From Halomarina rubra (lineage in GTDB: Archaea > Halobacteriota > Halobacteria > Halobacteriales > Haloarculaceae), in NCBI RefSeq assembly GCF_023699475.1, contig NZ_JALXFV010000003.1, forward strand, positions 95,739-159,738: a stretch of 64,000 nt of DNA, in the 5' to 3' direction. Positions 6,237 to 21,930 of the stretch are shown here, piece after piece. Position 1 is the stretch's first letter. Each line of letters opens with the position of its first letter. The notes under the pieces were generated by a model that worked only from the letters and a program-made list of their open reading frames with translations, had not been told where the DNA came from and did no database searches. The translations under genes and the position numbers were made by a program.

Positions 6237-7679
6237 ATGGATGCGCAGCCAACACGACGGCGAGTACTCGCGACGCTCGGCGCGACGGGCGTCACGGCGC
6301 TGGCCGGTTGTACCAACGACAGCGACGACGGCGACGGCAACCAGACCGACGGGAACGGCGACGGGTCGCCCACGAACGGTGGCTCGATGACCGAGGGCGA
6401 CGGGACGACCGGCACGACCACCGGGTCGGCCGGCGACGTCTCGGGCACGCTCAAGGTCGGCATCGTCCAGCCGGTGTCCGGCGACCTGAAGTACTACGGC
6501 CAGCAGGCGCTGTGGGGGTTCTACTCGGGACTCGGCTACAAGGGAGAGGCCTCCTCGCTGCCCGACGCCTCGACGGGGACGAAGACGATGAGCGTGGGCA
6601 ACCTCGACGTCGAGATGCACGTCCGGGACACGAAACTGCAGGCGTCGACCGCCCAGGAGGTCGCGACCGACCTCGTCCAGAGCGAGGAGGTCGACCTGCT
6701 GTTCGGCTGTACCTCCTCGGCGTCGGCGACGCAGGTCGTCAACACCGTCACCAAGCAGTCGGGCGTCCCGACGATGATCGGCCCCGCGGCGTCCGCGGAC
6801 GTCACCTCCTCCAGCGAGACCTGTACGGACCTGGTGTTCCGCACCAGCGAGAACACCGCGATGGACGCCCGCTCGGGCGGGAAGTACGTCGCCGAGAACT
6901 CCGACGTCTCGAAGGTGTACCTGTTCGGCGCGGACTACTCGTTCGGTCGCGCGGTCGTCAACAACTACAAGACCGTCCTGCAGGCCAACGGCGTCGAGAT
7001 CGTCGGCGAGCGGTTCGTCGAGCAGGGCTACTCCGAGTGGACGCCGCTGCTCGACAACGCGGCCGACGCGGGCGCGGAAGGCATCGTCGGCGGGTTCACC
7101 GTCGCGACGCTGCCCGCGCTGTTCACGACCGTCCTCAACGGGAACTACGACTTCAGTGTGTTCGGCGGGTTCGCCACCCAGATCACGACCCAGATCGTCG
7201 GCCAGACGATGCAGAAGGTGCTGGGCGACCCGCTGACCGCCGAGAAGGTCGAGGCTTCGAACCTCGGGCCGTTCACGACGCGCTACCACTGGAACCAGTA
7301 CGACAACGAGATCAACGACCGCTTCGTCGAGATGTACTCGAACGCCTACGACGCGGTGCCCGACCTGTTCACCTCGGGGACGTTCACCGCGGCGTCGGCC
7401 ATCGTCCAGGCCGCGCAGTCCGCCGGGTCCACCGACGGCGCGGAGATCGCCGACGCTATGCGCGGGATGACCGTCCAGGACACCCCGAAGGGCGAGGGTG
7501 CGTACGTCTTCCAGGAGTACAACAACCAGGCGCGCTCGCCGATGACCGTCGCGAACGTCGTCCCGAACGACGAGGACCTGTGGAACGCACCGGTGAAACC
7601 CTCGGCACCGGTCGCCACCATCTCGAAGGACCAGACCACCATCCCGGCCGACGCCTCGGAGATGAACTGTTCGCTCTGA
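6237..7679 (+). CDS. ABC importer substrate-binding lipoprotein (branched-chain amino acid / amide / urea type)
   Basis: 480-residue periplasmic-binding-protein type I (receptor family ligand binding). Residues 1-25 are a twin-arginine lipoprotein signal (TRRRVLATLG with lipobox ending in C25), then an acidic Gly/Asp/Asn/Thr linker to about residue 65 that tethers the binding domain to the membrane. The mature domain starts SGTLKVGIVQPVSGDLKYYG and carries the family pattern for amides and branched-chain amino acids. The ATG at 6237 was chosen over an upstream in-frame ATG because it puts the Tat motif at the usual place. First gene of the five-gene transporter operon. Confidence 0.9.
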   Translation: MDAQPTRRRVLATLGATGVTALAGCTNDSDDGDGNQTDGNGDGSPTNGGSMTEGDGTTGTTTGSAGDVSGTLKVGIVQPVSGDLKYYGQQALWGFYSGLGYKGEASSLPDASTGTKTMSVGNLDVEMHVRDTKLQASTAQEVATDLVQSEEVDLLFGCTSSASATQVVNTVTKQSGVPTMIGPAASADVTSSSETCTDLVFRTSENTAMDARSGGKYVAENSDVSKVYLFGADYSFGRAVVNNYKTVLQANGVEIVGERFVEQGYSEWTPLLDNAADAGAEGIVGGFTVATLPALFTTVLNGNYDFSVFGGFATQITTQIVGQTMQKVLGDPLTAEKVEASNLGPFTTRYHWNQYDNEINDRFVEMYSNAYDAVPDLFTSGTFTAASAIVQAAQSAGSTDGAEIADAMRGMTVQDTPKGEGAYVFQEYNNQARSPMTVANVVPNDEDLWNAPVKPSAPVATISKDQTTIPADASEMNCSL

Positions 7680-7681
7680 GC

Positions 7682-8494
7682 ATGGCCCGACTCCGAACGC
7701 GAGGACTGACGAAACGGTTCGGTGGCCTCACCGCGGTCGACCACGTCGACTTCGAACTGGGCGACGAACTCTGTTCGCTCATCGGCCCCAACGGCGCGGG
7801 CAAGACGACGTTCTTCGACCTGCTGACGGGCGTGCTCGAACCGACGGAGGGTACGGTCGAACGACGGCGTGGCGACACCTGGGAGGACGTCACCGGGGCA
7901 CCGCCCCACGCGACGGCCGCCAGCGGCGTCCACCGCTCGTACCAGATCACGAGCGTCTTCCCCGAGCGGACGGTCCACGAGAACGTCCGTATCGCCGCGC
8001 AAGCGGCGGGAAGCGACTCCTACACGCTCTGGCGTAACGCCGGTGCGTTCGACCGTTACGTCGAGGAGGCCGACGACATCCTCGACCGGGTGCGCCTCGC
8101 CGACCGCGCCGACACCCCGGCCCGGTCGCTGAGCCACGGCGCGAAACGCCAACTGGAGGTCGCCATCGCGCTGGCGGGCGACCCCGACGTGCTCCTGCTC
8201 GACGAACCGAACGCGGGCGTCTCCTCCGAGAGCGTCGACGACATCGTCGCGCTCATCGAGGACGTCGCCAGCGACCACGCCGTCCTGCTCGTCGAGCACA
8301 ACATGGACATCGTGATGAACGTCTCCGACCGCATCGTCGTCCTGAACCGCGGGAGCGTCATCGCCGACGGCACACCCGAGGAGGTCCGCGACGACCCCGC
8401 GGTCCAGGAGGCGTACCTCGGCGGCTACGAACCCGGCGCTGCCCGCGGGACCGACCGCGGCGAGGACGGCGACACCGCGGAGGGGTCGGCGTGA
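7682..8494 (+). CDS. ABC importer ATP-binding protein, LivG/UrtD-like
   Basis: 270 residues. Walker A GPNGAGKTT at 35-43, signature LSHGAKRQL at 150-158, Walker B VLLLDEP at 170-176 and H-loop histidine H206. The LSHG form of the signature is more like UrtD than LivG, so urea or a short amide is as likely a substrate as branched-chain amino acids. The ATG is 2 nt after the binding-protein stop. The C-terminus has an acidic extension that overlaps the next gene by 4 nt (GTGA). Confidence 0.9.
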   Translation: MARLRTRGLTKRFGGLTAVDHVDFELGDELCSLIGPNGAGKTTFFDLLTGVLEPTEGTVERRRGDTWEDVTGAPPHATAASGVHRSYQITSVFPERTVHENVRIAAQAAGSDSYTLWRNAGAFDRYVEEADDILDRVRLADRADTPARSLSHGAKRQLEVAIALAGDPDVLLLDEPNAGVSSESVDDIVALIEDVASDHAVLLVEHNMDIVMNVSDRIVVLNRGSVIADGTPEEVRDDPAVQEAYLGGYEPGAARGTDRGEDGDTAEGSA

Positions 8495-9285
8495 GTTCGA
8501 GCGACGCACCCGCCGACGACACAAGCGGTGTCGACACCACGACCGAGACGGACGGAGAGACCGACTCGGGGGCGGGCACGCCCGCCGACCCGCTGTTGGC
8601 CGTCGAGGGCGTCCACAGCTACTACGGCGAGAGCCACATCCTCGAGGGCGTCAGCCTCGACGTGAACGAGGGCGAGGTCGTCGCGCTCATCGGCCGCAAC
8701 GGCGTCGGCAAGACGACGACGCTCCGGAGCATCCTCCAGTTGACCCCGCCACGCGAGGGCCACGTCCACTACCGTGGCGAGGACCTCGTCGGCCTGGGCA
8801 CCAACGAGGTCGCCCAGCGCGGTGTCGGCTGGATTCCCGAGGACCGCCGCGTGTTCTCGGCGCTGACCGTCGAGGAGAACGTCCGCATCTCGGTGCCGAA
8901 GGGGGGCGACGTCGACGCCGCCGTCGCGCGGGTCTACGAGACGTTCCCCGCGCTCGAAGAGCGCCGGAACGCCGAGGCGGGCGCGCTCTCGGGGGGCCAA
9001 CAGCAGATGCTCGCCATCGCCCGCGGTCTCGTGGGCGAGAACGACCTCCTCCTGATAGACGAACCGAGCGAGGGCCTCGCCCCGCAGATCGTCGCGGACG
9101 TCGCCGACGCCATCGCCGACGCGAGTCGGGAGGCGACCGTCCTGCTGGTCGAACAGAACCTCCCGCTGGCGCTCGACCTCGCCGACCGCTTCTACGTGCT
9201 CGACAACGGGCAGGTGGTCGCGACCGGCGACACCGACGACGTGAGTGCCGACGACGACGACCTCCGGGGGTATCTCACCGCATGA
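8491..9285 (+). CDS. ABC importer ATP-binding protein, LivF/UrtE-like
   Basis: 264 residues, starting with GTG that overlaps the preceding TGA. An acidic Ser/Asp/Thr-rich lead of 33 residues precedes the ATPase. Walker A GRNGVGKTT at 68-76, signature LSGGQQQML at 166-174, Walker B LLLIDEP at 186-192. The EPSEGLAP segment is typical of LivF. It pairs with the 7682-8494 ATPase as a heterodimer. Overlaps the next permease by 4 nt (ATGA). Confidence 0.9.
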   Translation: MSSSDAPADDTSGVDTTTETDGETDSGAGTPADPLLAVEGVHSYYGESHILEGVSLDVNEGEVVALIGRNGVGKTTTLRSILQLTPPREGHVHYRGEDLVGLGTNEVAQRGVGWIPEDRRVFSALTVEENVRISVPKGGDVDAAVARVYETFPALEERRNAEAGALSGGQQQMLAIARGLVGENDLLLIDEPSEGLAPQIVADVADAIADASREATVLLVEQNLPLALDLADRFYVLDNGQVVATGDTDDVSADDDDLRGYLTA

Positions 9286-10304
9286 GCGCGCTGTTCGCCG
9301 CGAGCGTCGGGGCGCTCCCGTTACAGCTCGCGGAGCTGTTCACCTTCGACGCGCTGTCCTCGGTGCTGTTCGACGCGCTGTCGAAGGCCGCCGTCTACGC
9401 CATGCTCGCGATGGGCCTGACGCTCATCTTCGGGCTGATGGGCGTGCTCAACTTCGCCCACGGCTCGCTGACGATGCTCGGAGCGTACCTCGGCGGGCTG
9501 GTGATGGTTGTGCTGGTCACCGGCGCGACCGGTCCGTGGACGCGCCTCGCGTTCTTCTTCGTCGGCCTGGTCGTCGTGTTCGGGTTGCTGTCGGCGCTGG
9601 GCGCGACCCTCGAAGTCGGGCTCATCCGCCCGCTGTACGACCGGCCGCCCATCTACCAGATCCTCCTGACGTTCGGCATCACGCTCGTCATCGACGAGCT
9701 CGTACGTATCGTGGTGCTGTTCTACGGTCTCCAGCCCATCACCGAGTGGCAGGAGGCGCTGGGGACGAAACCGTACTTCCTCGGCCAGCAACTCGTGCTC
9801 GGTCCGGTCTCGGTCGGCGGGATGGACCTGTTCGAGATGCTGCTGGGAGCGGCCACCGTCGCCGCGGTGTGGGCGTTCCTCACCCGGACGCGCTACGGCC
9901 TCGTGGTGCGGGCGGGCAGCGAGGACGCCGAGATGACCGAGGCGCTCGGCATCGACGTCCGACGCGTGTTCACCACGGTGTTCGCGCTGGGCGTGGGGTT
10001 GGCCGGCGTCGCCGGCATGCTCCTCATGTGGGACAACAACTGGGGGGCGTCCGTCCCGCTGGCGACCGAGACGCTGCTGCCGGCGTTCGTCGTCGTCATC
10101 ATCGGTGGCCTCGGGACGTTCCGGGGCACCGTCGTCGCGGCGGTCATCGTCGGGTTCGCCGACGCGCTGGCCCAGTGGCTGTTCGTCAACAGCGTCGTCG
10201 ACTTCCCGCCTCTGCCCCAGCTGACGGTGTTCCTCATCCTCGTGGTGATGCTCGTCATCCGCCCGCAGGGGCTGTTCGGTCGCGCGGAGGTGGGGGGCCA
10301 TTAG
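9282..10304 (+). CDS. ABC importer permease, LivH-like
   Basis: 340-residue integral membrane protein with about eight hydrophobic segments. Family features are the start of the domain KAAVYAMLAMGLTLIFGLMGVLNFAHG and IGGLGTFRGTVVAAVIVG near the C-terminus. It forms the pore with the LivM-like permease that follows. The ATG overlaps the LivF-like stop. A strong Shine-Dalgarno for the next gene (GGAGGTG, 10286-10292) lies inside its last codons. Confidence 0.9.
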   Translation: MSALFAASVGALPLQLAELFTFDALSSVLFDALSKAAVYAMLAMGLTLIFGLMGVLNFAHGSLTMLGAYLGGLVMVVLVTGATGPWTRLAFFFVGLVVVFGLLSALGATLEVGLIRPLYDRPPIYQILLTFGITLVIDELVRIVVLFYGLQPITEWQEALGTKPYFLGQQLVLGPVSVGGMDLFEMLLGAATVAAVWAFLTRTRYGLVVRAGSEDAEMTEALGIDVRRVFTTVFALGVGLAGVAGMLLMWDNNWGASVPLATETLLPAFVVVIIGGLGTFRGTVVAAVIVGFADALAQWLFVNSVVDFPPLPQLTVFLILVVMLVIRPQGLFGRAEVGGH

Positions 10305-10338
10305 CGCACCCACCGACACCGCCGACGGCGGCGACGGC

Positions 10339-11667
10339 GTGACCGAGACCGAGGCCACGACCGAGGAGTCGTGGCTCGTCCGCTACGGCCGCGAACACGT
10401 CCCGCACCTGCTGGTCATCGCGTTCCTCGCGCTGTACCCGGGGCTGTACACGCTCGCGGTCGGACTCTCGCTCCCCGCCCCGCTGGGGTGGGTGCCGGAC
10501 CTGCTGTACGCGGTGCTCCCCCGCGTGGACACGATGATCGTCGTGTTGTACTTCGGACTGTTCGCGATGAGCTTCGACTTCGTCTCGGGGTACACCGGCT
10601 ACCTGTCGTTCGGCCACGCCGTCTTCTTCGGCACGGGAGCGTACACGGTCGTCCTCGCCGCGAACGGGCTGTTGCCGTTCGTACCCTCGGGGACGCCGTT
10701 CCTGTTGTTGCTCGTGCTCGCGGGCCTCCTCGCGGTCGCGCTGGCGTTCGCCATCGGGGCGGTGTCGTTCCGCCTCTCGGGCGTCTACTTCGCGATGATT
10801 ACGCTGGGCGTCTCGCAGGTCGTCTACGTGTTCGTCCGCGACTGGGACTACGTCGGACCGAACCCCAAAGACGGAATCTCGGTGTCGTTCGACCTCCACC
10901 CCGGCGCGTTCGAGATCGGCGTCCCGTTCGTCGACGCGCTGGGACTCGGTATCGGGAAGCTGACGGGCGACACGCTCGCCATCGCGGGCCTCGAACTGTC
11001 GACCGTCGAGGTGTCGTACTACTGCATCGGTCTCGTCGTGCTGGTCTGTTACTTCGCGATGCAGCGGGTCATCCACTCCCCGTTCGGGAAGGTGATGCTC
11101 GCCATCCGCGAGAACGAAGAGCGCGCCCGCGCCGTGGGCTACGACACCTACCGCTACAAGCTGGTGGCGTTCGCGGTGTCGGCGTTCTTCGCCGCCGTCG
11201 CCGGCGGCCTGTTCGCGGGCTACTCGCGGGCGGTGTCGCCCGACGAGACGTTCTTCTTCCTCGTCACGGGCGACGCGCTGCTCGTCAGCATCATCGGCGG
11301 GTTCGGCACGCTGGCCGGCCCGCTGTTCGGGACGTGGTTCGACGAACTGCTCCGGGAGTTCCTCTCGAAGGAGGGGACCGGTGGCGGCCTGCTGCCGTTC
11401 CTCCAGGAGTACCTCCCCCAGAGCGTCCTCGACGCCGTCATCCTCAACGGGATGACCGTCGGTGAGGCCGTCGACACGTTCCTCAACGGCCACGCCAGCC
11501 TGTACCTCGGTCTCCTGTTCGTCCTGTTCGTCCTGTTCGTCCCGAACGGCCTGCTCGGGACCGTCCGCGAACGAGCGGGCGGTCGAGTGTCGAAGCGGGT
11601 CGCCGCTCGACTCCGGTCGCGGGGCGGAACGGAGACGGCACGCGGGACGGCGAGCGAGGACGACTGA
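10339..11667 (+). CDS. ABC importer permease, LivM-like (start uncertain; possible ATT start at 10300)
   Basis: Integral membrane permease of about 442 residues from GTG 10339, with about ten hydrophobic segments and the LivM hallmark SGYTGYLSFGHAVFFGTGAY. The frame stays open upstream: from ATT at 10300 it reads SAPTDTADGGDG before joining the GTG, a typical haloarchaeal N-terminus. That ATT lies 7 nt after GGAGGTG and overlaps the LivH stop by one base, matching the coupling elsewhere in this operon, while GTG 10339 has no Shine-Dalgarno. I give the conventional start here and raise ATT as a finding. Confidence 0.88.
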   Translation: MTETEATTEESWLVRYGREHVPHLLVIAFLALYPGLYTLAVGLSLPAPLGWVPDLLYAVLPRVDTMIVVLYFGLFAMSFDFVSGYTGYLSFGHAVFFGTGAYTVVLAANGLLPFVPSGTPFLLLLVLAGLLAVALAFAIGAVSFRLSGVYFAMITLGVSQVVYVFVRDWDYVGPNPKDGISVSFDLHPGAFEIGVPFVDALGLGIGKLTGDTLAIAGLELSTVEVSYYCIGLVVLVCYFAMQRVIHSPFGKVMLAIRENEERARAVGYDTYRYKLVAFAVSAFFAAVAGGLFAGYSRAVSPDETFFFLVTGDALLVSIIGGFGTLAGPLFGTWFDELLREFLSKEGTGGGLLPFLQEYLPQSVLDAVILNGMTVGEAVDTFLNGHASLYLGLLFVLFVLFVPNGLLGTVRERAGGRVSKRVAARLRSRGGTETARGTASEDD

Positions 11668-12022: not shown

Positions 12023-12337
12023 ATGACGTCCGAGACGGACCTGACGTGGACCGCACTGACCGGGTTCGAACGCGACCTGCTGCAGGCCGCCGCCGCGCTG
12101 GAGCACGACGGGGAGCCGACGAGCGGGGCGACGCTCCGCCGGCACCTCGAACGCCACGGCTACGGGGCGGTGAGCCACGGGCGGGTCTACCAGAACCTCG
12201 ACAGCCTGGAGGCCCACGGCGCGCTCGAACGCGCCCCGGTCGACGGGCGAACGTACCACCACCGGCCGACCGAGCGGGGGCGGCGGGTCGCCCGCGACCA
12301 CCTCGACGCGGCGACGACGGCGTTCGCGCGGAGTTAG
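12023..12337 (+). CDS. PadR-like winged-helix regulator
   Basis: 104 residues in the small haloarchaeal PadR-like class: start LTWTALTGFERDLLQAAAAL, then LRRHLERHGYGAVSHGRVYQNLDSLEAHGALER and VDGRTYHHRPTERGR. Dimeric DNA-binding repressor by family. It resembles the 13252-13647 protein, so the neighbourhood has two related regulators. Its stop overlaps the stop of the convergent membrane gene (12334-12651) by 4 nt. Confidence 0.82.
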   Translation: MTSETDLTWTALTGFERDLLQAAAALEHDGEPTSGATLRRHLERHGYGAVSHGRVYQNLDSLEAHGALERAPVDGRTYHHRPTERGRRVARDHLDAATTAFARS

Positions 12338-12651
12338 GCGAACGACCGCTTGTGTTCGACGTACAGCACGCCCGTGAACAGCGCGAACGGGACGAGGCCG
12401 ACCACGGCGAGTGACATGGCGGCCACCAGCGACGCGGGGAGGGCGGCCTGCCCGAGGAGGAAGACGACGACGGCCGCACCGGTGCCGATGAACGAGATGA
12501 CGCTGGTGATGGCGAGGCCGAAGCTGAGTTTGCGGAGTCGCCACGTGAGGTCGTCCGCGGCGCGGAGCATCTTGATCAGAACCGCGATCGGTGGGATGGA
12601 CAGTGCGACGAGCTGGAGCAGTCCGAGGGCGATGTCGGTTTCGAGGGTCAT
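12334..12651 (-). CDS. Small membrane protein, three predicted TM segments
   Basis: 105 residues, with hydrophobic segments at about 9-27, 46-67 and 74-96 and the short charged tail EHKRSFA. I do not recognise the family; haloarchaeal genomes hold many such small membrane proteins beside PadR-like regulators. Convergent with and overlapping the 12023-12337 regulator by 4 nt, so that gene could control it. Confidence 0.65.
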   Translation of the reverse strand: MTLETDIALGLLQLVALSIPPIAVLIKMLRAADDLTWRLRKLSFGLAITSVISFIGTGAAVVVFLLGQAALPASLVAAMSLAVVGLVPFALFTGVLYVEHKRSFA

Positions 12652-12805: not shown

Positions 12806-13120
12806 TCACGTGACGAAGAACACCGTCGAGGCGAGTGCCCACGTGACGAAGCCGACCAGCAGCGCGAGGGGCCACTCCGCGCGGGTGAGCGCCCGGACGG
12901 TACCCGCCCAGACCAGCGGCGAGAGGACGACGCCGACGACCGGGAGCCAGCCGAACACGAGCGTCGTCAGGCCGCCGAGGACGAGCGCCACGAGCGCGAC
13001 GCCGACGGCGTAAGCGTAGGTCACGGCCGTCCCGGTCCGGACGGCGAGGCCGACGTAGACGGCCGGACCGGTGAGCAACACGCTCACGAGCAGCCCGACG
13101 AGGAGGTCGACGAGGAACAT
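12806..13120 (-). CDS. Small membrane protein, four predicted TM segments, in a PadR operon
   Basis: 104 residues, almost entirely hydrophobic, with four segments (about 3-22, 32-53, 57-75, 83-103). Family not recognised. Its ATG follows the stop of the 43-residue cysteine-rich gene with no intervening base, so the two are almost certainly co-translated with the PadR-like gene upstream. Confidence 0.7.
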   Translation of the reverse strand: MFLVDLLVGLLVSVLLTGPAVYVGLAVRTGTAVTYAYAVGVALVALVLGGLTTLVFGWLPVVGVVLSPLVWAGTVRALTRAEWPLALLVGFVTWALASTVFFVT

Positions 13121-13252
13121 CTACTCGGGCGCGCAGCACGCTCCCCCGTCGGTCGCCGTCCGGTCACGGTCGTCCTGGCAGGGACAGTCCGCGGCTGTGC
13201 AGTCCGCACAGCCACGGTCGACGCAGAGGCAGGTGTCACAGCACGCGGACAT
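13121..13252 (-). CDS. Very small cysteine-rich protein (43 aa, ten Cys), metallothionein-like
   Basis: Too short for usual gene calling but well supported. It starts at an ATG sharing one base with the stop of the PadR-like gene (TGATG), ends directly at the ATG of the next gene, and has GGAGGA 6-11 nt upstream. Cysteines are C4, C5, C8, C10, C15, C18, C23, C25, C39 and C40, giving CC-x2-C-x-C, C-x2-C, C-x-C and CC clusters with few hydrophobic residues. This suggests soft-metal (Cu, Zn, Cd) binding. No family recognised. A metal-permease and a copper-containing oxidase lie just upstream on the same strand. Confidence 0.75.
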   Translation of the reverse strand: MSACCDTCLCVDRGCADCTAADCPCQDDRDRTATDGGACCAPE

Positions 13253-13647
13253 CAGTAGTCCTCCTCGGTGTCGGCGTCGTCGGCCGCCTCGTCGGTCACC
13301 GACTCGAAGCCGAGGCAGAGCGCCTCCCAGTTGCAGTGGGCCTGGAGCGCGTCGCGGGCGCTCTCGGTGATGCGGTAGGTGTTCGTCCGGCCGTCGACGG
13401 GGCGCTTCTCGACGAGGTCGGCGTCGACGAGGTCGCGCAGGTTGCCGTAGAGGCGGCCGTGGTTGACGCGGTCGCCGCGCTGGTCGGACAGCTCCTCCTG
13501 GATGGTGACGCCGGTCGGCACGGTGCCTTCGAGGCTGGCGACGACGAACAGCAGGTCGCGCTGGAACCCGGTGAGTCGGGCGATGGGCGACGGGGAGCGG
13601 TCGGTTGGCGATTCAGCGGTCGGAGTCGAGTGGTTCACAGACATCAC
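13252..13647 (-). CDS. PadR-like regulator heading the cysteine-rich/membrane-protein operon
   Basis: 131 residues: a Ser/Pro-rich lead, then the winged helix (LTGFQRDLLFVVASL, QEELSDQRGDRVNHGRLYGNLRDLVDADLVEKR, VDGRTNTYRITESARDAL) and an acidic tail with C105 and C111 (HCNWEALC). First gene of a three-gene operon with one-base and zero-base junctions. A metal- or redox-responsive role is plausible from the cysteine-rich neighbour but not shown. Confidence 0.82.
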   Translation of the reverse strand: MMSVNHSTPTAESPTDRSPSPIARLTGFQRDLLFVVASLEGTVPTGVTIQEELSDQRGDRVNHGRLYGNLRDLVDADLVEKRPVDGRTNTYRITESARDALQAHCNWEALCLGFESVTDEAADDADTEEDY

Positions 13648-13915: not shown

Positions 13916-15511
13916 TCAGCGCGAGGACCACTCGCGGGCCTCGACGGCCCGGTCACGGAGGTCCCAGGGGTCGTCGCCGGCGGGGTCGCCGACGAGGAGG
14001 GCGCGCACGACCGCCCAGACGAACACGAGTTGGGCGACGCCGAGGACGAACGCGCCCAGCGTGGCGACGGTCTGCATCGGCGCGAACCGGACCGGGTAGG
14101 TCGCCATCCGGCGCGGGAGGCCGTCGAGACCCAGCGCGAGCAGCGCGCCGAAGGTCACCTTCACGCCGAGCATCGAGAGCCAGAAGTGCGCTCTGGCGAG
14201 TCGAGCGTCGATCTTGCGGCCCGTCAGCAGCGGGAACCAGTAGTAGCCGCCGGCGAACAGGCCGAACGCGACCATCCCGACGAGCATGAAGTGGAAGTGC
14301 GCGACGACGTAGTACGTCCCGTGGTAGACGACGTCGACGGGAATCGACGCCAGCAGGACGCCCGTGACGCCGCCGACGACGAACCACGCCACCGCCCCGA
14401 GGCAGAACAGCATCGGGGGTTCGAGCCGAATCGCGCCGTTCCACAGCGTCGTCAGCCACGCGAACGTCTTGATGGCCGAGGGGAGGGCGACGGCGAGCGT
14501 GACGGCCATGAACGACGCGGTGACTCGCGGGTCGACGCCGGTGACGAACATGTGGTGACCCCAGACGCCGAAACTGAGCACGCCGAGCGCGAGCGTCGAG
14601 TAGACGACCGCGCGCTCGCCGAACAGCCGCCGACCCGCGAACCGCGGCATGACGTAGCTCAGGACCCCCATCGACGGGAGGACGAGGACGTACACCTCGG
14701 GGTGGCCGAAGAACCAGAACAGGTGCTGGAACGCCATCGGTCCGCCCGGCGGGGCGAAGTGGCCCGTCCCGAGCATCCGGTCGGAGAGGAGGACGACGAT
14801 GGCGCTCTCCAGGACGGGGAAGGCGAACAGCACCAGCACGGAGGCGACGAGCATCGACCACGTGAACAGGTCGAGACGCGCCCACGGGACGGTCCGCTCT
14901 TCGAACACGGTCACGAACACGACCATCGCGCCGAGGATGGAGGAGAGACTCGCCAGCGAGAGGCCGACGAGCAGGAGGTCGACGCCGGTGCCCGCCTGGA
15001 CCGACAGCGGGGTGTAGAGCGTCCACCCCACCACGGGCGGGCGGACCCGGAAGCCCAGCAGGCCGACGTCGGCGAGCAGGTCGAGCAGGGCGGGGGCACG
15101 CGCGACGAGCAGCCCGGGCGGGAGCAGCCAGAACCCGAGCGCGTGGAGCCGCGGGAACGCCATGCGGTCGCTACCGACGAGTCGGGGGAGGACCGCGCTC
15201 GCGAGACCGAACGACACCGGCGTCGCGAAGAAGAACAGCATCGTCACGCCGTGGGTCGTGAAGAACCCGGCGTAGGTCTCGGCGGGCCAGATGCCCGGAC
15301 CGGGCGTCAGCGCCTCCGCGCGCAGCGCCATCGCGTCGGTCGCCCCCCACAGGCCGGCGACGGTGCCGAACACGACGTAGAGGCGCGCGACGGTGAGGTG
15401 GTCGATGGCGAGCGGGTCGAGAGCGCGGCCGGCGGTCGCGAGAGCACGGAGCAGTGTCGCGAACGCACCCCGGAGTCTGGCGGTGAGGTACTCGACTGCG
15501 GGGCCGCTCAC
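13916..15511 (-). CDS. Heme-copper oxidase subunit I (orphan; no subunit II in the window)
   Basis: 531-residue polytopic protein. Ligands: low-spin heme H87 (THGVTM) and H407; CuB H270 with the cross-link tyrosine Y274 and proton-pathway E272 (FGHPEVY), H319/H320 (GHH); high-spin heme H405 (VAHFHFM). These fit an aa3-type (A-family) quinol or cytochrome oxidase. GTG start at 15511 overlaps the upstream stop (GTGA); a much longer open frame upstream is only the antisense of the neighbour. No CuA subunit II, subunit III or heme-synthesis gene adjoins. Co-transcribed with a metal-permease and an MFS-like protein. Confidence 0.92.
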   Translation of the reverse strand: MSGPAVEYLTARLRGAFATLLRALATAGRALDPLAIDHLTVARLYVVFGTVAGLWGATDAMALRAEALTPGPGIWPAETYAGFFTTHGVTMLFFFATPVSFGLASAVLPRLVGSDRMAFPRLHALGFWLLPPGLLVARAPALLDLLADVGLLGFRVRPPVVGWTLYTPLSVQAGTGVDLLLVGLSLASLSSILGAMVVFVTVFEERTVPWARLDLFTWSMLVASVLVLFAFPVLESAIVVLLSDRMLGTGHFAPPGGPMAFQHLFWFFGHPEVYVLVLPSMGVLSYVMPRFAGRRLFGERAVVYSTLALGVLSFGVWGHHMFVTGVDPRVTASFMAVTLAVALPSAIKTFAWLTTLWNGAIRLEPPMLFCLGAVAWFVVGGVTGVLLASIPVDVVYHGTYYVVAHFHFMLVGMVAFGLFAGGYYWFPLLTGRKIDARLARAHFWLSMLGVKVTFGALLALGLDGLPRRMATYPVRFAPMQTVATLGAFVLGVAQLVFVWAVVRALLVGDPAGDDPWDLRDRAVEAREWSSR

Positions 15512-16665
15512 GCTGCCACCCGCCGGAGGTAGTTGCCCGTGCCGACGACGCCCGCCGCACTCGCCAGCACGAACGCGACCGCCGGGTCGACGGCGAACAG
15601 GACGCCGCCGACCGACGCCGCGAGCGCGAGGCCGACCGCACGGGCCGCTCGGTAGGTGGCGTGGTGGTCGCCGAGGACGGCGTCCACCTCGTCGGCGAGC
15701 ACGGTCCAACCGGCCTGTCCCACGCCGACCGCGAGGAACGTCCCGGCGAACGCGAGCGGCGTCGCGGGCGCGAGGAGGACCGCCAGCGGAGCGGTCGTCG
15801 AGACGACGAGACCACCTACCGCGAGCGTCGGGGGCGTCCAGACGCTCGCCGCTCGGAGTCGGGGGAGGAGGCGGTGGACCGTGGCGGCGGCGACGACGCC
15901 GAGCGCGAGACAGGCCGCGACGACCGCGGCCCCCTCGCCCATCCCGTCGCCGAGGCGCTGGATGCTGAACGCGACGAACACCGGGCCGACGAGCGCGAGG
16001 CCGCCACGCGTCCAGCCGTCGGCCAGCAGGAGGCGACGGTCGGCCCGCGAGAGGCGCTCGACGCGTTCGGTGAGCGCGGCCAGCGAGAGCGTCGGGACGG
16101 CGAGCGGACGGCGGGGAACCCCGAGCGACAGCGAGAGCACGCCGAGCGCGGCCGTAATAGCGAAGACGGTCTGGAGCCCGGCGACGAGGCCGCCCGCCGC
16201 GAGCAGCGGCGTGAGCGCGACCAGCGCGAGGAGCGGTCCGAGCGCCGACCCCAGCAACACGGTGAGCGCGTCGGGGCGCGACCCTCGACCACCGTAGGGC
16301 GCGATGCCGAGCACGCCGAGGTAGAACCACGCCCACACCGGCACCCCCGAGAGCGGGGCGACGATGGGTGCGAGTGTCCAAACGGTGACGCCGGCGACCG
16401 CTAGCGCGTGCCGGACCGCCGTCGCGTCGAGTCCCGCCGCCGCGAGGAGTCGTCGACCGTGTTCCGGGCGGCCGAGGACGAGCCACAGACCGCCGAACAC
16501 ACCGATGACGGGTAGCGGCGTCCCGACGGTGAGCAGCCACGCCGGGACGAACCACGCCGCGGCCCCGAGCGCGCAGTCGAACGCGCGGGCGACGACGACG
16601 CGTTCGGCCGGGAGGTACGGCCGGACGCGGACGGCGACCGACCGCGCAGTCGAGAGCAGGGTCAC
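15508..16665 (-). CDS. MFS-like multi-pass membrane protein
   Basis: 385 residues with ten to eleven hydrophobic segments. A charged central loop near residues 205-225 separates two halves (LSRADRRLLLADGWTRGG then a new TM), as in major facilitator proteins. Substrate unknown. GTG start overlaps the permease stop (GTGA) and its own stop overlaps the oxidase start, so expression is tied to both. A role in metal or heme delivery to the oxidase is a guess from context. Confidence 0.7.
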   Translation of the reverse strand: MTLLSTARSVAVRVRPYLPAERVVVARAFDCALGAAAWFVPAWLLTVGTPLPVIGVFGGLWLVLGRPEHGRRLLAAAGLDATAVRHALAVAGVTVWTLAPIVAPLSGVPVWAWFYLGVLGIAPYGGRGSRPDALTVLLGSALGPLLALVALTPLLAAGGLVAGLQTVFAITAALGVLSLSLGVPRRPLAVPTLSLAALTERVERLSRADRRLLLADGWTRGGLALVGPVFVAFSIQRLGDGMGEGAAVVAACLALGVVAAATVHRLLPRLRAASVWTPPTLAVGGLVVSTTAPLAVLLAPATPLAFAGTFLAVGVGQAGWTVLADEVDAVLGDHHATYRAARAVGLALAASVGGVLFAVDPAVAFVLASAAGVVGTGNYLRRVAA

Positions 16666-18029
16666 GACTCCGACTCACCCCGGAGACGGTCCCGGAAGCG
16701 ATTCCTGATGTGTCGGTACCGCCGGTCGGCGCGTCGTCGGACGGCGGCGGCGACTGGCGCGAGCGAGCGCGAGGAACGGACCGCGGCGAGCGTCCCGTGT
16801 GCGCCGAGCGTCGTCGCGTGGACGGCGCGAGCCTTCCCCACCACGCGCTCGCGGAGGCCGTCGACGCCGTAGACGAGCACGAGTTGCGCGAGGAAGACGG
16901 GCGTGAGCACGCCGTTGAGCACGAGCGTGTAGCCGTGGTCGACGGTGCCGCCGACGTCGCCGGTCGGGACGAGGCCGCCGGCGACGGCGACGTAGTGAAT
17001 CACGACACCCGCGACGACGGCCGCCAGCGCGAGCGACAGCGTGATCACGACGCCCATCAGCGTGCCGTACGAGCGGCGGTAGATGCCGAGCAGTGGCGGG
17101 ATGAGCAGGTCGGCGTAGACGAACGACAGCACCGCGCCGAACGGCAGCCCGTTCTGCCAGAGCACGAGCGCGAACGGGATGTTCCCGACCGAACACATGA
17201 ACGAGAGCGCGCCGAGCAGTGTCGCGAGCGCGGCGGTGTAGACGACGCCCTCGAACCCGGTCCCCGCGCCGAACAGCGTGGTCCACCAGCTCGTCGGGAC
17301 GAACCCGCCGACGAGCCCCGCCAGCAGGAACCCGAGTGCGATGTCGTCCCAGAGCATCTCCCAGTCGCCGACGGTCGAACTCGCGGCGCGCTTCCAGCCA
17401 CCGAGCGTCGTGAGGCCGCCACGCGGGTTCTCGACAGACGCCTCGTAGGAGGCGAGACAGCCCGGACAGCAGAAGTACTCGGTGCCGCCGGGCGTCTCGA
17501 TGGTCTGGTCGGTCGACGCCTCGCTGGCGTCGACGCTCATCCCGCAGGTCGGGCAGGTCGCCTCGCGGGTGCGGAGGACCCGTTCGCGGGCGGCTTCGAC
17601 CCACCGCGAAGGGACCCGGCGGGCGACGACGGTGACGACGGCGACGGCGACGACGCCGCCGAGGAACTCGCCGACGACGAACTGCCAGCCGAGCAACACC
17701 CACAGCACGAGGCCGAGTTCGACGACGAGGTCCGTCGCGGCGAACATGTACGCGAGCGTCGCGGCCAGCGACGCGCCCTTCGAGAAGACGGTCTTGGCCG
17801 TCGCGACCGCGGAGTACGAACACGAGGAGGAGGCCGCACCGAAGCCGGTGGCGAGGCCCACCTCGCGCCAGCCGTCGTCGCCCAGGGTCGCGGACATGCG
17901 CTCTTCGGAGACGAACGCGTGGACCGCGCCCGAGACGGTGAACCCGAGGACGAGCGCCCACCACGTGTCCCACGTCATCTCGGCGACGAGCGAGAGCGCG
18001 GCGGCGAGCGAGTCGAGGAACCAGTTCAT
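16662..18029 (-). CDS. DUF318-type permease with an internal YHS-like metal-binding domain (SO_0444-like metal efflux)
   Basis: 455 residues. Two blocks of TM helices flank a soluble cysteine module: CPTCGM (C159, C162) and FCCPGC (C187, C188, C191) form a YHS-like site. Membrane motifs are GFGAASSSCSYSA (C70) and SFMCSVGNIPFALVLWQNG (C279), matching the permease family that includes ArsP and SO_0444-like Cu/Zn exporters. The C-terminal 50 residues are Arg-rich. The ATG at 18029 was chosen since it precedes the first TM (MNWFLDSL) and lies one base after the upstream stop. Confidence 0.83.
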   Translation of the reverse strand: MNWFLDSLAAALSLVAEMTWDTWWALVLGFTVSGAVHAFVSEERMSATLGDDGWREVGLATGFGAASSSCSYSAVATAKTVFSKGASLAATLAYMFAATDLVVELGLVLWVLLGWQFVVGEFLGGVVAVAVVTVVARRVPSRWVEAARERVLRTREATCPTCGMSVDASEASTDQTIETPGGTEYFCCPGCLASYEASVENPRGGLTTLGGWKRAASSTVGDWEMLWDDIALGFLLAGLVGGFVPTSWWTTLFGAGTGFEGVVYTAALATLLGALSFMCSVGNIPFALVLWQNGLPFGAVLSFVYADLLIPPLLGIYRRSYGTLMGVVITLSLALAAVVAGVVIHYVAVAGGLVPTGDVGGTVDHGYTLVLNGVLTPVFLAQLVLVYGVDGLRERVVGKARAVHATTLGAHGTLAAVRSSRSLAPVAAAVRRRADRRYRHIRNRFRDRLRGESES

Positions 18030-18030
18030 C

Positions 18031-18972
18031 TCAGAACCGCTCCGCGATGGTGCCCTCGGAGCCGACGGCGACGTCGGCGAATCGGGCGGTACCGAGCGCG
18101 ACGCCCCGGAGCGAGGCGTCGGGCCCGTCGTCGTTTCGCCACTGCCCACCGGTGAGGATGAACACGGCGCTGTCCCCCACGGCGAGGCCGCGGTCGTCGA
18201 CGCGGTCGACGGCGGTCAGCGGGTTCTCGGCCTGCACCGCCTGGAGCCAGTTGTGGCCGTTGTAGGAGACGACCGTCCCGGCGTCGGTGGTGGCGTTGAG
18301 CACCGACGCCGACAGCGCCGAGACGTCGGTGATGGAGGCGCTCGGCGCGTCGATGCGGTTCCACTGGCCGTTCGCACGGCGAGCGACGGCGTTCTGGCTA
18401 GCGAGGAAGACGACGCCGTCGGCGTCGTCCATCGCGACGGCGTTGTTGCCGCCGGTCGGTTTCGAGGGGCCCTCCCACGTCGGTTCGGTGCCGCGGAGTT
18501 GGGCGACGAGCAGTTCGCCCGACCCGTTGGCGACGTAGACGCGCTCGCTGCCGGCCGCGCCGACGACGGTGACGGCCTCCCAGCTGGAGGTCCGGCCGGC
18601 CGGCGCTGAGTAGTCCTTCACGTCGCCCGTCGCGACCCGGAGGCGACCGATGGCTCCCGAGGAACCGACGAACCAGACGTGCGCACCGTCGTCGGTGGCG
18701 GCGACCGCGACCAGCCCGTTCGAGGCGTCGGCGGGGCCGTCCTCGTCGACGACCGCCCAGTCCGCCCCGTCGGCACGGTGGACGACGACGCCACCCTCGC
18801 CGACCGCGACGGGACCGTCGGCGGTCATGACGACGTCTGCGAGGGCTGCCCCGGTCGGCGAGTCGACGGTGACCCACCCGCGCTGGGGCGTCGACGAGTC
18901 GCTCGAACAGCCGGCGAGGGCGGCGAGGACCCCGCCACAGCCGGCGAGGAAACCGCGTCGTGTCGTCGTCAT
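18031..18972 (-). CDS. Tat lipoprotein with beta-propeller-like repeats (Ycf48/BNR-like)
   Basis: 313 residues. Tat lipoprotein signal TTRRGFLAGCGGVLAALAGC with the modified cysteine at C22. The rest is a series of beta-rich repeats with Gly-Asp turns (for example VAVGEGGVVVHRADGADW, VWFVGSSGAIGRL, VYVANGSGELLV), like photosynthesis-assembly-factor (Ycf48) propellers. Anchored outside the membrane. First gene of the operon ending in oxidase subunit I, so an assembly or electron-carrier docking role is conceivable. Confidence 0.75.
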   Translation of the reverse strand: MTTTRRGFLAGCGGVLAALAGCSSDSSTPQRGWVTVDSPTGAALADVVMTADGPVAVGEGGVVVHRADGADWAVVDEDGPADASNGLVAVAATDDGAHVWFVGSSGAIGRLRVATGDVKDYSAPAGRTSSWEAVTVVGAAGSERVYVANGSGELLVAQLRGTEPTWEGPSKPTGGNNAVAMDDADGVVFLASQNAVARRANGQWNRIDAPSASITDVSALSASVLNATTDAGTVVSYNGHNWLQAVQAENPLTAVDRVDDRGLAVGDSAVFILTGGQWRNDDGPDASLRGVALGTARFADVAVGSEGTIAERF

Positions 18973-19141: not shown

Positions 19142-20263
19142 TCAGTCGTACGAGCGGTCTATCTCGCGGTAGTCGGGGGTCTCACGGAGCGGGGTGAACG
19201 CGCCGGGAGCGGTGGTGCGCTTGACGATGGTGGCGATGCGGACGATGTAGGAGACGAGGATGGCGAACGGGGCGAACGCGATGCCCAGCGAGACGCTGAC
19301 GAGCACCTCGAGGAACACCGGACCCATCAGCGGCGTCCCGCGGGCGAACAGCAGGATGAGGAACACGCTCGTCAGGAACGACGCGATACCGCTGTAGGCG
19401 ATGAGCCGCGAGAGGTTCGCGAGTTCCTGCTGGACGTACAGCGCCTTGAAGTACTGGCGCAGCACGTCCATCGAGACGAACAGTTCGCGGAGGTCGTCGA
19501 GCAGTTCCCGCGCCCGCGAGGAGAGCACCTCCTCGTGGACGGCCCCCAGCCGACGGGCGTCGGTGACGTTCCGGGAGTAGCTGTCGCCCATCATCGGCAA
19601 CAGCACCTCGATGAGTCGCTGGTGGGTGCCGTCGAGCTGTTCTTCGATCTCCTCGGACTGGGCCTCGACGGTCTCGATGTACGTCTCGATGTCCGACCTG
19701 CAGTCGCGGGCACGGTCGCCGGTGCCGGCCGCGCGCCCGACGACGGCCTGCAACTCGTAGGCGCGGTCGAGGACGAGGCCGACGATGCCCGAGAGGAACG
19801 CGGCGGGTTCGGTCGGCGCGACGGCCTCGTTTGGCAGCTGTTCTTCGATACCCGTGCGGAACGTCCGGACGCTGCGGATCTCCTGTCTGAGCTGTTCGGG
19901 CGAGCCGAACAGCTGTGAGACGGTGAGCTGGTTCACCGCGACGACGATGGGGACGAACGAGAACAGCCCGGAGATGACGCCGCCGAACATCGAGGTGACG
20001 AAGCCGTGGTCCTCGATGCCGACGACGCCGAACGCGCCGAGGAAGAACGCCGCCACGGAGACGATGCCGACCATCCAGCCGGCGATGCGCATCCGGTCGC
20101 CCTCCAGCAGGAACCACCGCTGGAACTTCGTCCGACGTTTCGGGTCGACGAGGAACGTACCGACGAACAGCACGCCCATCACGGCGACGCGGCTGACGAC
20201 CCAGAGGATGCGCGTGCTGAGCAGGAACCCCTTGCGGAGCCACGCGAGCGCGCGCTGGTTCAC
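19142..20263 (-). CDS. Haloarchaeal integral membrane protein paired with a DUF389 protein
   Basis: 373 residues. About four hydrophobic segments in two pairs (near 10-35 and 60-105, then 285-345) enclose a long helical cytoplasmic region rich in Glu/Gln/Arg. No family recognised. GTG at 20263 overlaps the DUF389 stop (GTGA); a second GTG at 20269 is also in frame. The strict coupling suggests the two proteins form one complex. Confidence 0.72.
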   Translation of the reverse strand: MNQRALAWLRKGFLLSTRILWVVSRVAVMGVLFVGTFLVDPKRRTKFQRWFLLEGDRMRIAGWMVGIVSVAAFFLGAFGVVGIEDHGFVTSMFGGVISGLFSFVPIVVAVNQLTVSQLFGSPEQLRQEIRSVRTFRTGIEEQLPNEAVAPTEPAAFLSGIVGLVLDRAYELQAVVGRAAGTGDRARDCRSDIETYIETVEAQSEEIEEQLDGTHQRLIEVLLPMMGDSYSRNVTDARRLGAVHEEVLSSRARELLDDLRELFVSMDVLRQYFKALYVQQELANLSRLIAYSGIASFLTSVFLILLFARGTPLMGPVFLEVLVSVSLGIAFAPFAILVSYIVRIATIVKRTTAPGAFTPLRETPDYREIDRSYD

Positions 20264-21315
20264 GGCCACCACCCGGGGAAGGTGCCGTCGGCGAGACCGC
20301 CGAGGACGACCACCAGCGAGAGGGCGACGACCGCGAGGACGAGCACGCGGACGAGCAGCGTCGAACGCGCCCGTCGGAGGGCGGCCCACTCGGCGGGGTG
20401 GTAGCCGAGCCACCACAGCGTGAGGATGGCGGCGATGTTGACGGCGACGACGTTGACGAGGACGACGGCCCCCGCGCCGAACGCGGCGACGGGGTAGCCC
20501 CACGCCGCGCCGACGCCGATGACGCCCAGCGGCGGGACGACCGCCGCCGCTATCATGACGCCGACGAGGTCGAGGGTGTCGTCGGTCGAGAGGCCGACCG
20601 CACCTGCGATGCCCGCGCCCATCGCGACGACGACGAGGAGGAGGCTCGGTTCGACGTGGTTCGAGATGTTTTCGAGGGCAGCGAGCGTCGGCCCGCTCAT
20701 CCCGAGGAACTTCAGGCCGAAGGCGGTCACGACCGCGGTGAGCGCGCCGGTGGCGAGGCCGCCGATCTGGCGGACCAGGCTCCGGCGGAACAGGGAGGTG
20801 TCGTCGACGACGGTGGCGACCCCGGCGACCATCGGCGGGCCGATGAGTGGGGCGATGACCATCGCGCCGACGAGGACCGCGAGCGACTCCAGCAGCACGC
20901 CCGCGACGGCGACGACCGCCGAGACGACCGTCAGGAGGACGTGGATACCGAACGAGGGGAGCAGGTCGTCGGCCGTCGAGCGGAGTTCGCCGCGGGAGAC
21001 GCCGCGGTAGTTTCGACCGACGACCTCGTCGTAGGGGTCCTCCTCGAAGCGCGAGGAGAGCACCGCCTCGGGCGCGAGCACCATCGTGTAGAGGTCGTCG
21101 CCGACGTCGGCGAGACGCTCCTGGAGGTGTTCGACCGAGCGCGCCGGGACGGGCACCGAGACGATGGCCGGGGCCGAGGCCCCGTTCGGGTCGCCGGCGA
21201 CGGCGTAGTCGAGGTGGTCGTCGTCGAGCAGTTCACGGACGCGCTGACAGGAGTCGGGCGAGAGCGCGAGCACCTGCACCACGCGGATGTCCTCGCGGGA
21301 GAGCGCGCCGCTCAT
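20260..21315 (-). CDS. DUF389 / TIGR00341 family membrane protein
   Basis: 351 residues. An N-terminal alpha/beta domain of about 110 residues (ferredoxin-like, VVQVLALSPDSCQRVRELL) is followed by six to eight TM helices with the family motif LESLAVLVGAMVIAPLIGPPMVAG and IAAAVVPPLGVIG. The family is widespread and of unknown function. Followed by its membrane partner with a 4-nt overlap. Confidence 0.85.
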   Translation of the reverse strand: MSGALSREDIRVVQVLALSPDSCQRVRELLDDDHLDYAVAGDPNGASAPAIVSVPVPARSVEHLQERLADVGDDLYTMVLAPEAVLSSRFEEDPYDEVVGRNYRGVSRGELRSTADDLLPSFGIHVLLTVVSAVVAVAGVLLESLAVLVGAMVIAPLIGPPMVAGVATVVDDTSLFRRSLVRQIGGLATGALTAVVTAFGLKFLGMSGPTLAALENISNHVEPSLLLVVVAMGAGIAGAVGLSTDDTLDLVGVMIAAAVVPPLGVIGVGAAWGYPVAAFGAGAVVLVNVVAVNIAAILTLWWLGYHPAEWAALRRARSTLLVRVLVLAVVALSLVVVLGGLADGTFPGWWP

Positions 21316-21366: not shown

Positions 21367-21930
21367 TCAGAGGTGGAGGACCGCGTCGTCAGCGAGGGAG
21401 TCGGCGTCGGGGAACGCGTCGCCGTACAGCGTGACGACGTCGTTCCGAATCGTTTCGAGGGCGGCGTCGCCCTCGGGCGAGCAGCGCACGCCGCAGCGTG
21501 CGGTTATCTCGTCGCCGATGCGCTCGTAGCGGAGGCGACCGTCGCACGCCGGACACCGCAGTTCGGCGTGGGCGTGCATCCACTCGGTGTCGTGACCGAG
21601 TGCGGCAAGTCGCCGTTCGAGCGCGTACCAGACGACGGTGTCGAGTGGTTGAGTGTCGCGAGCGCGGAACAGTCGGTAGACGACCAGCGCCGCCGTCCCG
21701 TACAGGTCGGTGTCGACGGGGTGGTGTCTGGCGTGACTCCGGCGGAAGTACGCGACGATGGCCGAGCGAGACGAGCGAACCGCGCCGCCGGTGAGTTCAC
21801 CCGTCGTGCCGGCCGCGCGCGCCACGTCGTCGTCGCTGACCGCTCGCAACCCTCGGCCGCGAGCGTCGTAGTGGCGCTCGTCGGTGAGCGATGCACCGCT
21901 TTTCGGACAGAACGCGTCGGTTCCAATCAT
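21367..21930 (-). CDS. Haloarchaeal zinc-finger protein of unknown function
   Basis: 187 residues with two cysteine sites: CPKSG near the N-terminus (C8) and CPACDGRLRYE ... CGVRCSPEG in the last third, the spacing of zinc ribbons. The middle is helical with Arg and His. I do not recognise the family. The upstream region (21990-22050) is AT-rich and likely holds its promoter. Confidence 0.7.
   Translation of the reverse strand: MIGTDAFCPKSGASLTDERHYDARGRGLRAVSDDDVARAAGTTGELTGGAVRSSRSAIVAYFRRSHARHHPVDTDLYGTAALVVYRLFRARDTQPLDTVVWYALERRLAALGHDTEWMHAHAELRCPACDGRLRYERIGDEITARCGVRCSPEGDAALETIRNDVVTLYGDAFPDADSLADDAVLHL

Follow-up and report, generated by a model that had tools for sequence, protein, structure and literature searches.

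A conserved haloarchaeal gene cluster links a divergent A-family oxidase subunit I with a candidate copper-supply and assembly module

What does a heme-copper oxidase subunit I do when the genes for its usual partner subunits are not beside it? This question is raised by a 64,000-nucleotide stretch of the Halomarina rubra genome (contig NZ_JALXFV010000003.1, positions 95,739 to 159,738; hereafter the window), in which the gene for such a subunit (COX1) ends a run of four genes that also encode a Tat-type (twin-arginine translocation) lipoprotein, an ArsP_1/DUF318-type permease and a membrane protein resembling the major facilitator superfamily (MFS). A first-pass annotation of the window proposed that the four function jointly in supplying copper to a dedicated oxidase, and this central idea is partly supported here and survives in modified form. 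The run lies within a larger cluster that is real, conserved and, as far as the literature was searched, undescribed. The reading we prefer, with a probability of roughly 0.55, is that the locus provides subunit I for an extra, accessory A-family oxygen reductase and, beside it, dedicated metal-supply and assembly factors, the CuA-bearing subunit II (and subunit III) being mostly borrowed from the housekeeping set.

Conservation of the cluster

The neighbourhood proteins were searched in 294 sampled Halobacteria genomes, and the cluster was found in at least 26 of them (15 genera, 7 families), so that its genes are not neighbours in one genome only. With 13 further named loci, this gives 39 clusters: 21 loci including the window, five more that came from checking the better permease hits only, so that 26 is a minimum for the genomes sampled, and the 13 named loci. 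Further contigs were scanned with the permease because the alignment of the propeller lipoprotein is too variable, and genes at the loci were predicted by a simple caller based on codon usage, so that the gene starts are approximate. The usual order is a Zn-ribbon protein (F8), a DUF389 protein (F5), a membrane protein (F4), the Tat-type lipoprotein with a predicted beta-propeller (F0), in some clusters a PpoB2-like copper chaperone (F9), the permease (F3), the MFS-like protein (F2), COX1 (F1), a PadR-like regulator (F6) and small membrane proteins, and a cytosolic propeller.

The presence of COX1 and the permease in 39 of 39 clusters follows from the selection of the loci. The propeller, the MFS-like protein and F4 were not selected for, and each is present in 38 of the 39 clusters and in none of 18 loci that have the permease without a cluster-type COX1; the arrangement is therefore not due to chance. 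These 18 loci likewise lack DUF389, PadR, F7 and Zn-ribbon genes, which in the clusters number 36, 34, 35 and 28, respectively. A PpoB2-family protein occurs in 28 clusters, a heavy-metal-associated (HMA) domain protein in 14 and the small membrane protein F10 in 13. Many clusters (L087, L088, L090, L091, L100-L104 and L206-L216) consist of two divergent halves, and in them the cytosolic propeller is preceded by a gene (F13) resembling Glu/Leu/Phe/Val dehydrogenases. A reading of the locus as a defence system was also considered, for which PADLOC gave no match.

In the window, the first-pass description of the four minus-strand genes, including their order, a 1-nt gap and two GTGA overlaps, proved exact on re-reading. 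The propeller lipoprotein (18031..18972) is separated from the permease (16662..18029) by a single nucleotide (TGA-G-ATG), the permease overlaps the MFS-like gene (15508..16665) at 16662-16665, and the latter overlaps COX1 (13916..15511) at 15508-15511; the 4-nt overlaps at these two joints are seen again in other clusters. The four-gene operon is thus real and conserved, but as a unit it was drawn too small, being the middle of a cluster that reaches beyond it on both sides and occupies about 12.3-21.9 kb of the window.

Haloarchaeal terminal oxidases are highly diverse, and which subunits they contain and how electrons reach them have been described as open questions (PMC8305020). The first-pass statement that no oxidase operon of such content had been described agrees with our finding no description of the cluster, and no matching paper, in the literature searched, subscription journals being mostly outside that search.

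The catalytic subunit and its partners

The window COX1, a protein of 531 amino acids with a GTG start, belongs to PF00115 (E 7e-130) and contains HGVTM, HPEVY, HH, SAIK and HFHF. Against the NCBIfam model for CtaD_CoxA (TIGR02891) it scores 536.7 bits, under the curated cut-off of 670.75, and a relative scores 619. A 41-sequence tree separates the cluster COX1s from the rest along a branch supported at 91/99, and in a tree of the 39 cluster sequences and 18 others their clade has a Shimodaira-Hasegawa-like approximate likelihood ratio test (SH-aLRT) value of 97; they thus make up their own clade among A-type COX1s, and are not nested within one that has a standard operon. Residues are numbered below as in the Rhodobacter enzyme, a correspondence assigned by motif. 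The heme and CuB ligands, all noted in the window sequence by the first-pass annotation, are present there, and the six histidines are invariant in 39 of 39 cluster COX1s, as are the cross-link Tyr288 (Tyr-I, helix VI), the K-channel Lys362, and Arg481 and Arg482 near the CuA-heme path. The ratio of nonsynonymous to synonymous substitution rates (dN/dS) between the window COX1 and its Halomarina oriensis orthologue is 0.27. The cluster COX1 is under purifying selection, and its heme/CuB active site is intact.

The D channel is a different matter. Asp132 is retained in 19 of the cluster COX1s and lost in 20 (Arg in the window), Asn139 is retained in 20 and lost in 19 (His in the window), and Glu286 is retained in 24, including the window with its HPEVY, and replaced in 15 by Leu or Gln, never by Tyr. 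All 23 housekeeping COX1s used for comparison retain the three residues, although for Glu286 only this is circular for the four that were chosen by the string HPEVY. On the tree, the state changes number eight for Asp132 (five for an acid at that position), two for Asn139 and two for Glu286. From residue loss, it would appear that several lineages have weaker D-channel pumping or none, and that protons are delivered chiefly by way of the K channel.

A-family subunit I is defined by Tyr-I in helix VI and the K-channel Lys, and A2-type enzymes have Tyr in place of the D-channel Glu (PMC3084760). A complete D channel of either kind (Asp, Asn and Glu in A1, with Tyr for Glu in A2) is not a feature of the cluster clade. 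The cluster COX1s are placed in the A family by the tree and the K channel, and we claim neither an A1 nor an A2 label. A nitric oxide reductase (NorB) was rejected, as all cluster sequences have HPEVY or HPLVY with Tyr-I and their clade sits among A-type COX1s, whereas NorB has H-X-Arom-X-E and no Tyr-I. At the Mg site, Asp412 is replaced by Gly in 33 of 39 cluster COX1s; this was tried as a marker of an absent subunit II and is not diagnostic, since 9 of the 23 ordinary haloarchaeal A-type COX1s show Gly too.

Where, then, is subunit II? The first-pass annotation called the subunit I an orphan, and this holds for the window, in which no COX2, COX3 or heme synthase gene lies near COX1. Among the first 21 cluster genomes, COX2 lies within 15 kb of none of the 21 cluster COX1s, as against 44 of 86 other COX1s, and yet all 21 have COX2 somewhere in the genome. 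The H. rubra genome has four COX1 genes and two COX2 genes, the latter on other contigs, and one of these (at G000:C9, with COX3 and a CtaA/CtaB-like gene) lies 130 kb from its likely COX1; unlinked oxidase subunits are therefore normal in Halomarina. The heme synthase gene there (L119, 6576-7982) encodes a heme O synthase of the UbiA family that has a CtaA-like segment at its N terminus, and adjoins COX2 and COX3.

As a general description, however, "orphan" fails, for 4 of the 39 clusters, in two unrelated lineages, contain a genuine CuA COX2, and the notion that the cluster does without subunit II altogether is thereby ruled out as a rule. In genome G209 and in Halobiforma nitratireducens, this gene directly adjoins the propeller gene (at 3 bp in G209), while in Halosimplex aquaticum and H. 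pelagicum it follows F7, with COX3 next in H. aquaticum. Across the two lineages, the recruited genes (L104, 1592-2470; L219, 1495-2340; L197, 17955-19495, the COX3 included) thus occupy two separate places in the cluster. In the COX2 tree, the G209 and Halobiforma sequences pair up (99/97), with the housekeeping COX2 of related genomes as their sister group (joining fork 87/85), and the Halosimplex pair is separate from them; forcing all four together is not rejected by the approximately unbiased test (p-AU 0.22), yet is unsupported. The housekeeping-type COX1 that normally partners the related COX2 was not found in G209. A lone COX2 distributed like the cluster, for which the first-pass annotation had suggested searching, was not found, and the COX2 trees show no such lineage. 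Because genuine CuA COX2 genes occur in these four clusters, the other clusters probably obtain subunit II in trans, and the simplest reading is that the cluster COX1 probably uses a CuA subunit II that usually comes from outside the cluster.

Copper handling, assembly and flanking genes

The permease (455 amino acids, minus strand) belongs to PF03773 (ArsP_1; 211.8 bits, gathering cut-off 32.3). Its CPTC and CCPGC sites, as noted in the first pass, are present, and their cysteines are invariant in 16 aligned sequences, with the Pro and Gly between them varying. The "YHS" domain formerly ascribed to it is a TRASH/YHS-like Cys motif that stays under every Pfam cut-off. Close relatives of the permease also stand alone at other loci. 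The proposed copper link is strengthened by the PpoB2-family (PF09948) and HMA proteins of other clusters, the former scoring 139.2 bits in L073 against a gathering cut-off of 28.7. PpoB2, the one member of its family with a demonstrated role, delivers copper specifically to the tyrosinase encoded in the same operon (PMC2855505), and this is the best evidence for a copper-supply role. The more specific partner roles of the first-pass annotation are still ones that we infer, as the MFS-like protein is without the motifs of the copper importer CcoA and the propeller family is not restricted to oxidase loci.

The MFS-like protein (385 amino acids, minus strand) has no Pfam match over cut-off, and its AlphaFold model (predicted local distance difference test score, pLDDT, 89.6) finds MFS-type transporters as its best PDB matches, with E down to 2e-6 and template modelling (TM) scores of 0.5-0.7. 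A CcoA-type importer was rejected, since none of the 39 clusters has an MFS-like protein with MxxxM and HxxxM together. MFS proteins are needed for the biogenesis of bacterial cbb3 oxidase, in the case of CcoA (PMC5829832), and of bo3 oxidase (PMC10588857).

The propeller lipoprotein (313 amino acids, minus strand) matches TIGR01409 with 17.9 bits (cut-off 16.7), and its AlphaFold model (pLDDT 90.6) has Ycf48 as its nearest solved structures, with about 12% identity and TM 0.69; no Pfam match to the Ycf48 family was obtained, and the likeness is one of fold only. Ycf48 is a photosystem II assembly factor that shields a metal site during assembly (PMC10403576). A Ycf48-like function is an analogy, because the propeller family is widespread and includes secreted multi-propeller proteins; its being specific to oxidases is ruled out by its occurrence in 149 of the 294 genomes and in tandem secreted proteins. 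Two or more propellers are present in 34 of 39 clusters, the second without an export signal, and the Halomarina clusters have the Tat lipoprotein as their only propeller. Tat-exported proteins of 800-1330 amino acids with at least two tandem propeller copies are encoded at L221 (G000:C12, 7436-10753), L220 (G000:C15, 7710-10118) and L229 (G083:C34).

The remaining cluster genes of the window are all on the minus strand. Upstream lie F4 (19142..20272), a membrane protein of 376 amino acids with a cytosolic helical domain and no Pfam match over cut-off; the DUF389/TIGR00341 membrane protein (20260..21315, 351 amino acids; PF04087 1.9e-28, TIGR00341 over cut-off); and the Zn-ribbon-like protein (21367..21930, 187 amino acids), in whose sequence a CPxCxG...C motif can be read. 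Downstream lie the PadR-like winged-helix regulator (13252..13638; PF03551 1.2e-8) and the small membrane proteins F10 (12806..13120, 104 amino acids), a relative of which has no family match over cut-off, and F7 (12334..12651, 105 amino acids), which has no family match. We know of no role for DUF389, F4, F7 or F10, which could be oxidase subunits. F4 was also considered as a locus-specific protein and rejected, as it belongs to a large haloarchaeal paralogue family. DUF389-like and F4-like genes lie close together elsewhere in the H. rubra genome (L225, G000:C14:343000-357000), which suggests that these proteins are paired in settings other than the oxidase as well. Facing the cluster at 12023-12337 (plus strand) is another PadR-like winged-helix gene, shared with H. 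oriensis, and a gene run at about 6237-11667 (plus strand) resembles an ATP-binding cassette transporter of the branched-chain amino-acid type.

Possible functions and comparison with known systems

In the preferred reading, COX1 would join COX2 and COX3 of the housekeeping set, made elsewhere, in most species including H. rubra; electrons would enter through CuA from halocyanin or a similar donor, and oxygen would be reduced at the heme-CuB site, with protons arriving mainly through the K channel. The permease would manage copper for insertion into CuB and CuA, joined by the PpoB2-type protein where there is one (28 of 39 clusters) and in some clusters by a CopZ-like HMA protein. Assembly or docking on the two membrane faces may fall to the MFS-like protein together with the propellers, of which one is an exported lipoprotein and a second, in most species, is cytosolic. 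These parts in copper supply and assembly are proposals, as is any altered proton pumping. Several observations weigh against this reading. COX2 stands in only 4 of 39 clusters, the COX2 trees hold no subunit II lineage that follows the cluster everywhere, and the trans pairing for H. rubra is one that we infer. The permease reaches only 69.3 bits against the SO_0444 model (NF033936; cut-off 300), the Halomarina cluster has neither PpoB2 nor HMA genes, the sole PpoB2-like gene being on another contig, and neither the missing CcoA motifs nor the broad distribution of the propeller family is what such a module would favour.

The distance of cluster COX1s from COX2, the membrane partners F4, F5 and F7 in 35-38 of 39 clusters, the erosion of the D channel in many lineages and the Gly at the Mg site might suggest instead an enzyme without a CuA subunit in most species, in which DUF389, F4, F7 and F10 replace subunits II and III in a non- or weakly pumping, oxygen-scavenging oxidase, passing on to it the electrons of quinol or some other donor; a reference title in PMC8305020 records a Halobacterium aa3 preparation without CuA, reported in 1989. 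However, CuA COX2 genes inside four clusters, the invariant Arg481/Arg482, the Gly of ordinary A-type COX1s and the several ordinary COX1 genes likewise unlinked to COX2 speak against it, and we consider it rather unlikely. Unlikely, too, is its boldest form, an A-family oxygen reductase class that in most haloarchaea has no dedicated CuA subunit or D channel and has the membrane and propeller proteins of the cluster as new subunits; if true, a mitochondrial-type catalytic subunit would have evolved into a non-pumping or differently coupled oxidase. The locus could also be a copper or heavy-metal resistance island, its permease exporting metal and its COX1 a passenger or a metal- or oxygen-responsive component. 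The metal-binding cysteines of the permease, its solitary relatives, the PpoB2 and HMA proteins and the induction of an SO_0444-family transporter by Cu/Cd in Nitratiruptor (PMC10092412) would fit this; retention of oxidase ligands and catalytic Tyr in all 39 sequences, recruitment of COX2 and COX3, and the absence of other cluster genes from all 18 permease-only loci make it quite improbable. Long branches and D-channel losses might further be taken as signs of a decaying duplicate of housekeeping subunit I retained by linkage only, an idea made very improbable indeed by the invariant active site, the dN/dS value, the conserved operon overlaps and the wide distribution.

In this widespread locus, one oxidase clade is consistently accompanied by a set of about ten genes, several without an assigned function (DUF389, F4 and F7). 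Its COX1s are natural D-channel variants with an intact active site, and its other genes are testable candidates for archaeal copper delivery and oxidase assembly.

The cluster exhibits similarities to several known systems, but there are also differences. With the haloarchaeal A-type aa3 oxidase (coxA1, HVO_0907 type), its COX1 has in common the family, ligands, K channel and Tyr, and in some cases the lack of linkage to COX2, but it forms a separate clade with eroded D-channel residues, and the set of permease, MFS-like, propeller, DUF389 and PadR genes is missing from the two housekeeping COX1 loci examined. The permease shares the DUF318/ArsP_1 fold family and conserved cysteines with the SO_0444-family Cu/Zn efflux transporters, and differs from them in its score far under the cut-off and its inserted TRASH/YHS-like motif. 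Like the copper importer CcoA/CalT for cbb3 oxidase (PMC5829832), the MFS-like protein combines an MFS fold with an adjacent heme-copper oxidase gene, but it is without the paired MxxxM and HxxxM motifs in 39 of 39 clusters. The propeller resembles Ycf48/HCF136 in being a propeller lipoprotein beside a membrane redox enzyme and in its best fold matches, and is unlike them in its low identity and TM score and in a family abundant in haloarchaea outside the locus. Finally, the Marinomonas PpoB1/PpoB2 tyrosinase operon likewise joins a cuproenzyme to a PF09948 membrane protein, as do 28 of the 39 clusters, with the difference that its target is a tyrosinase rather than a heme-copper oxidase and that the Halomarina cluster has no PF09948 gene.

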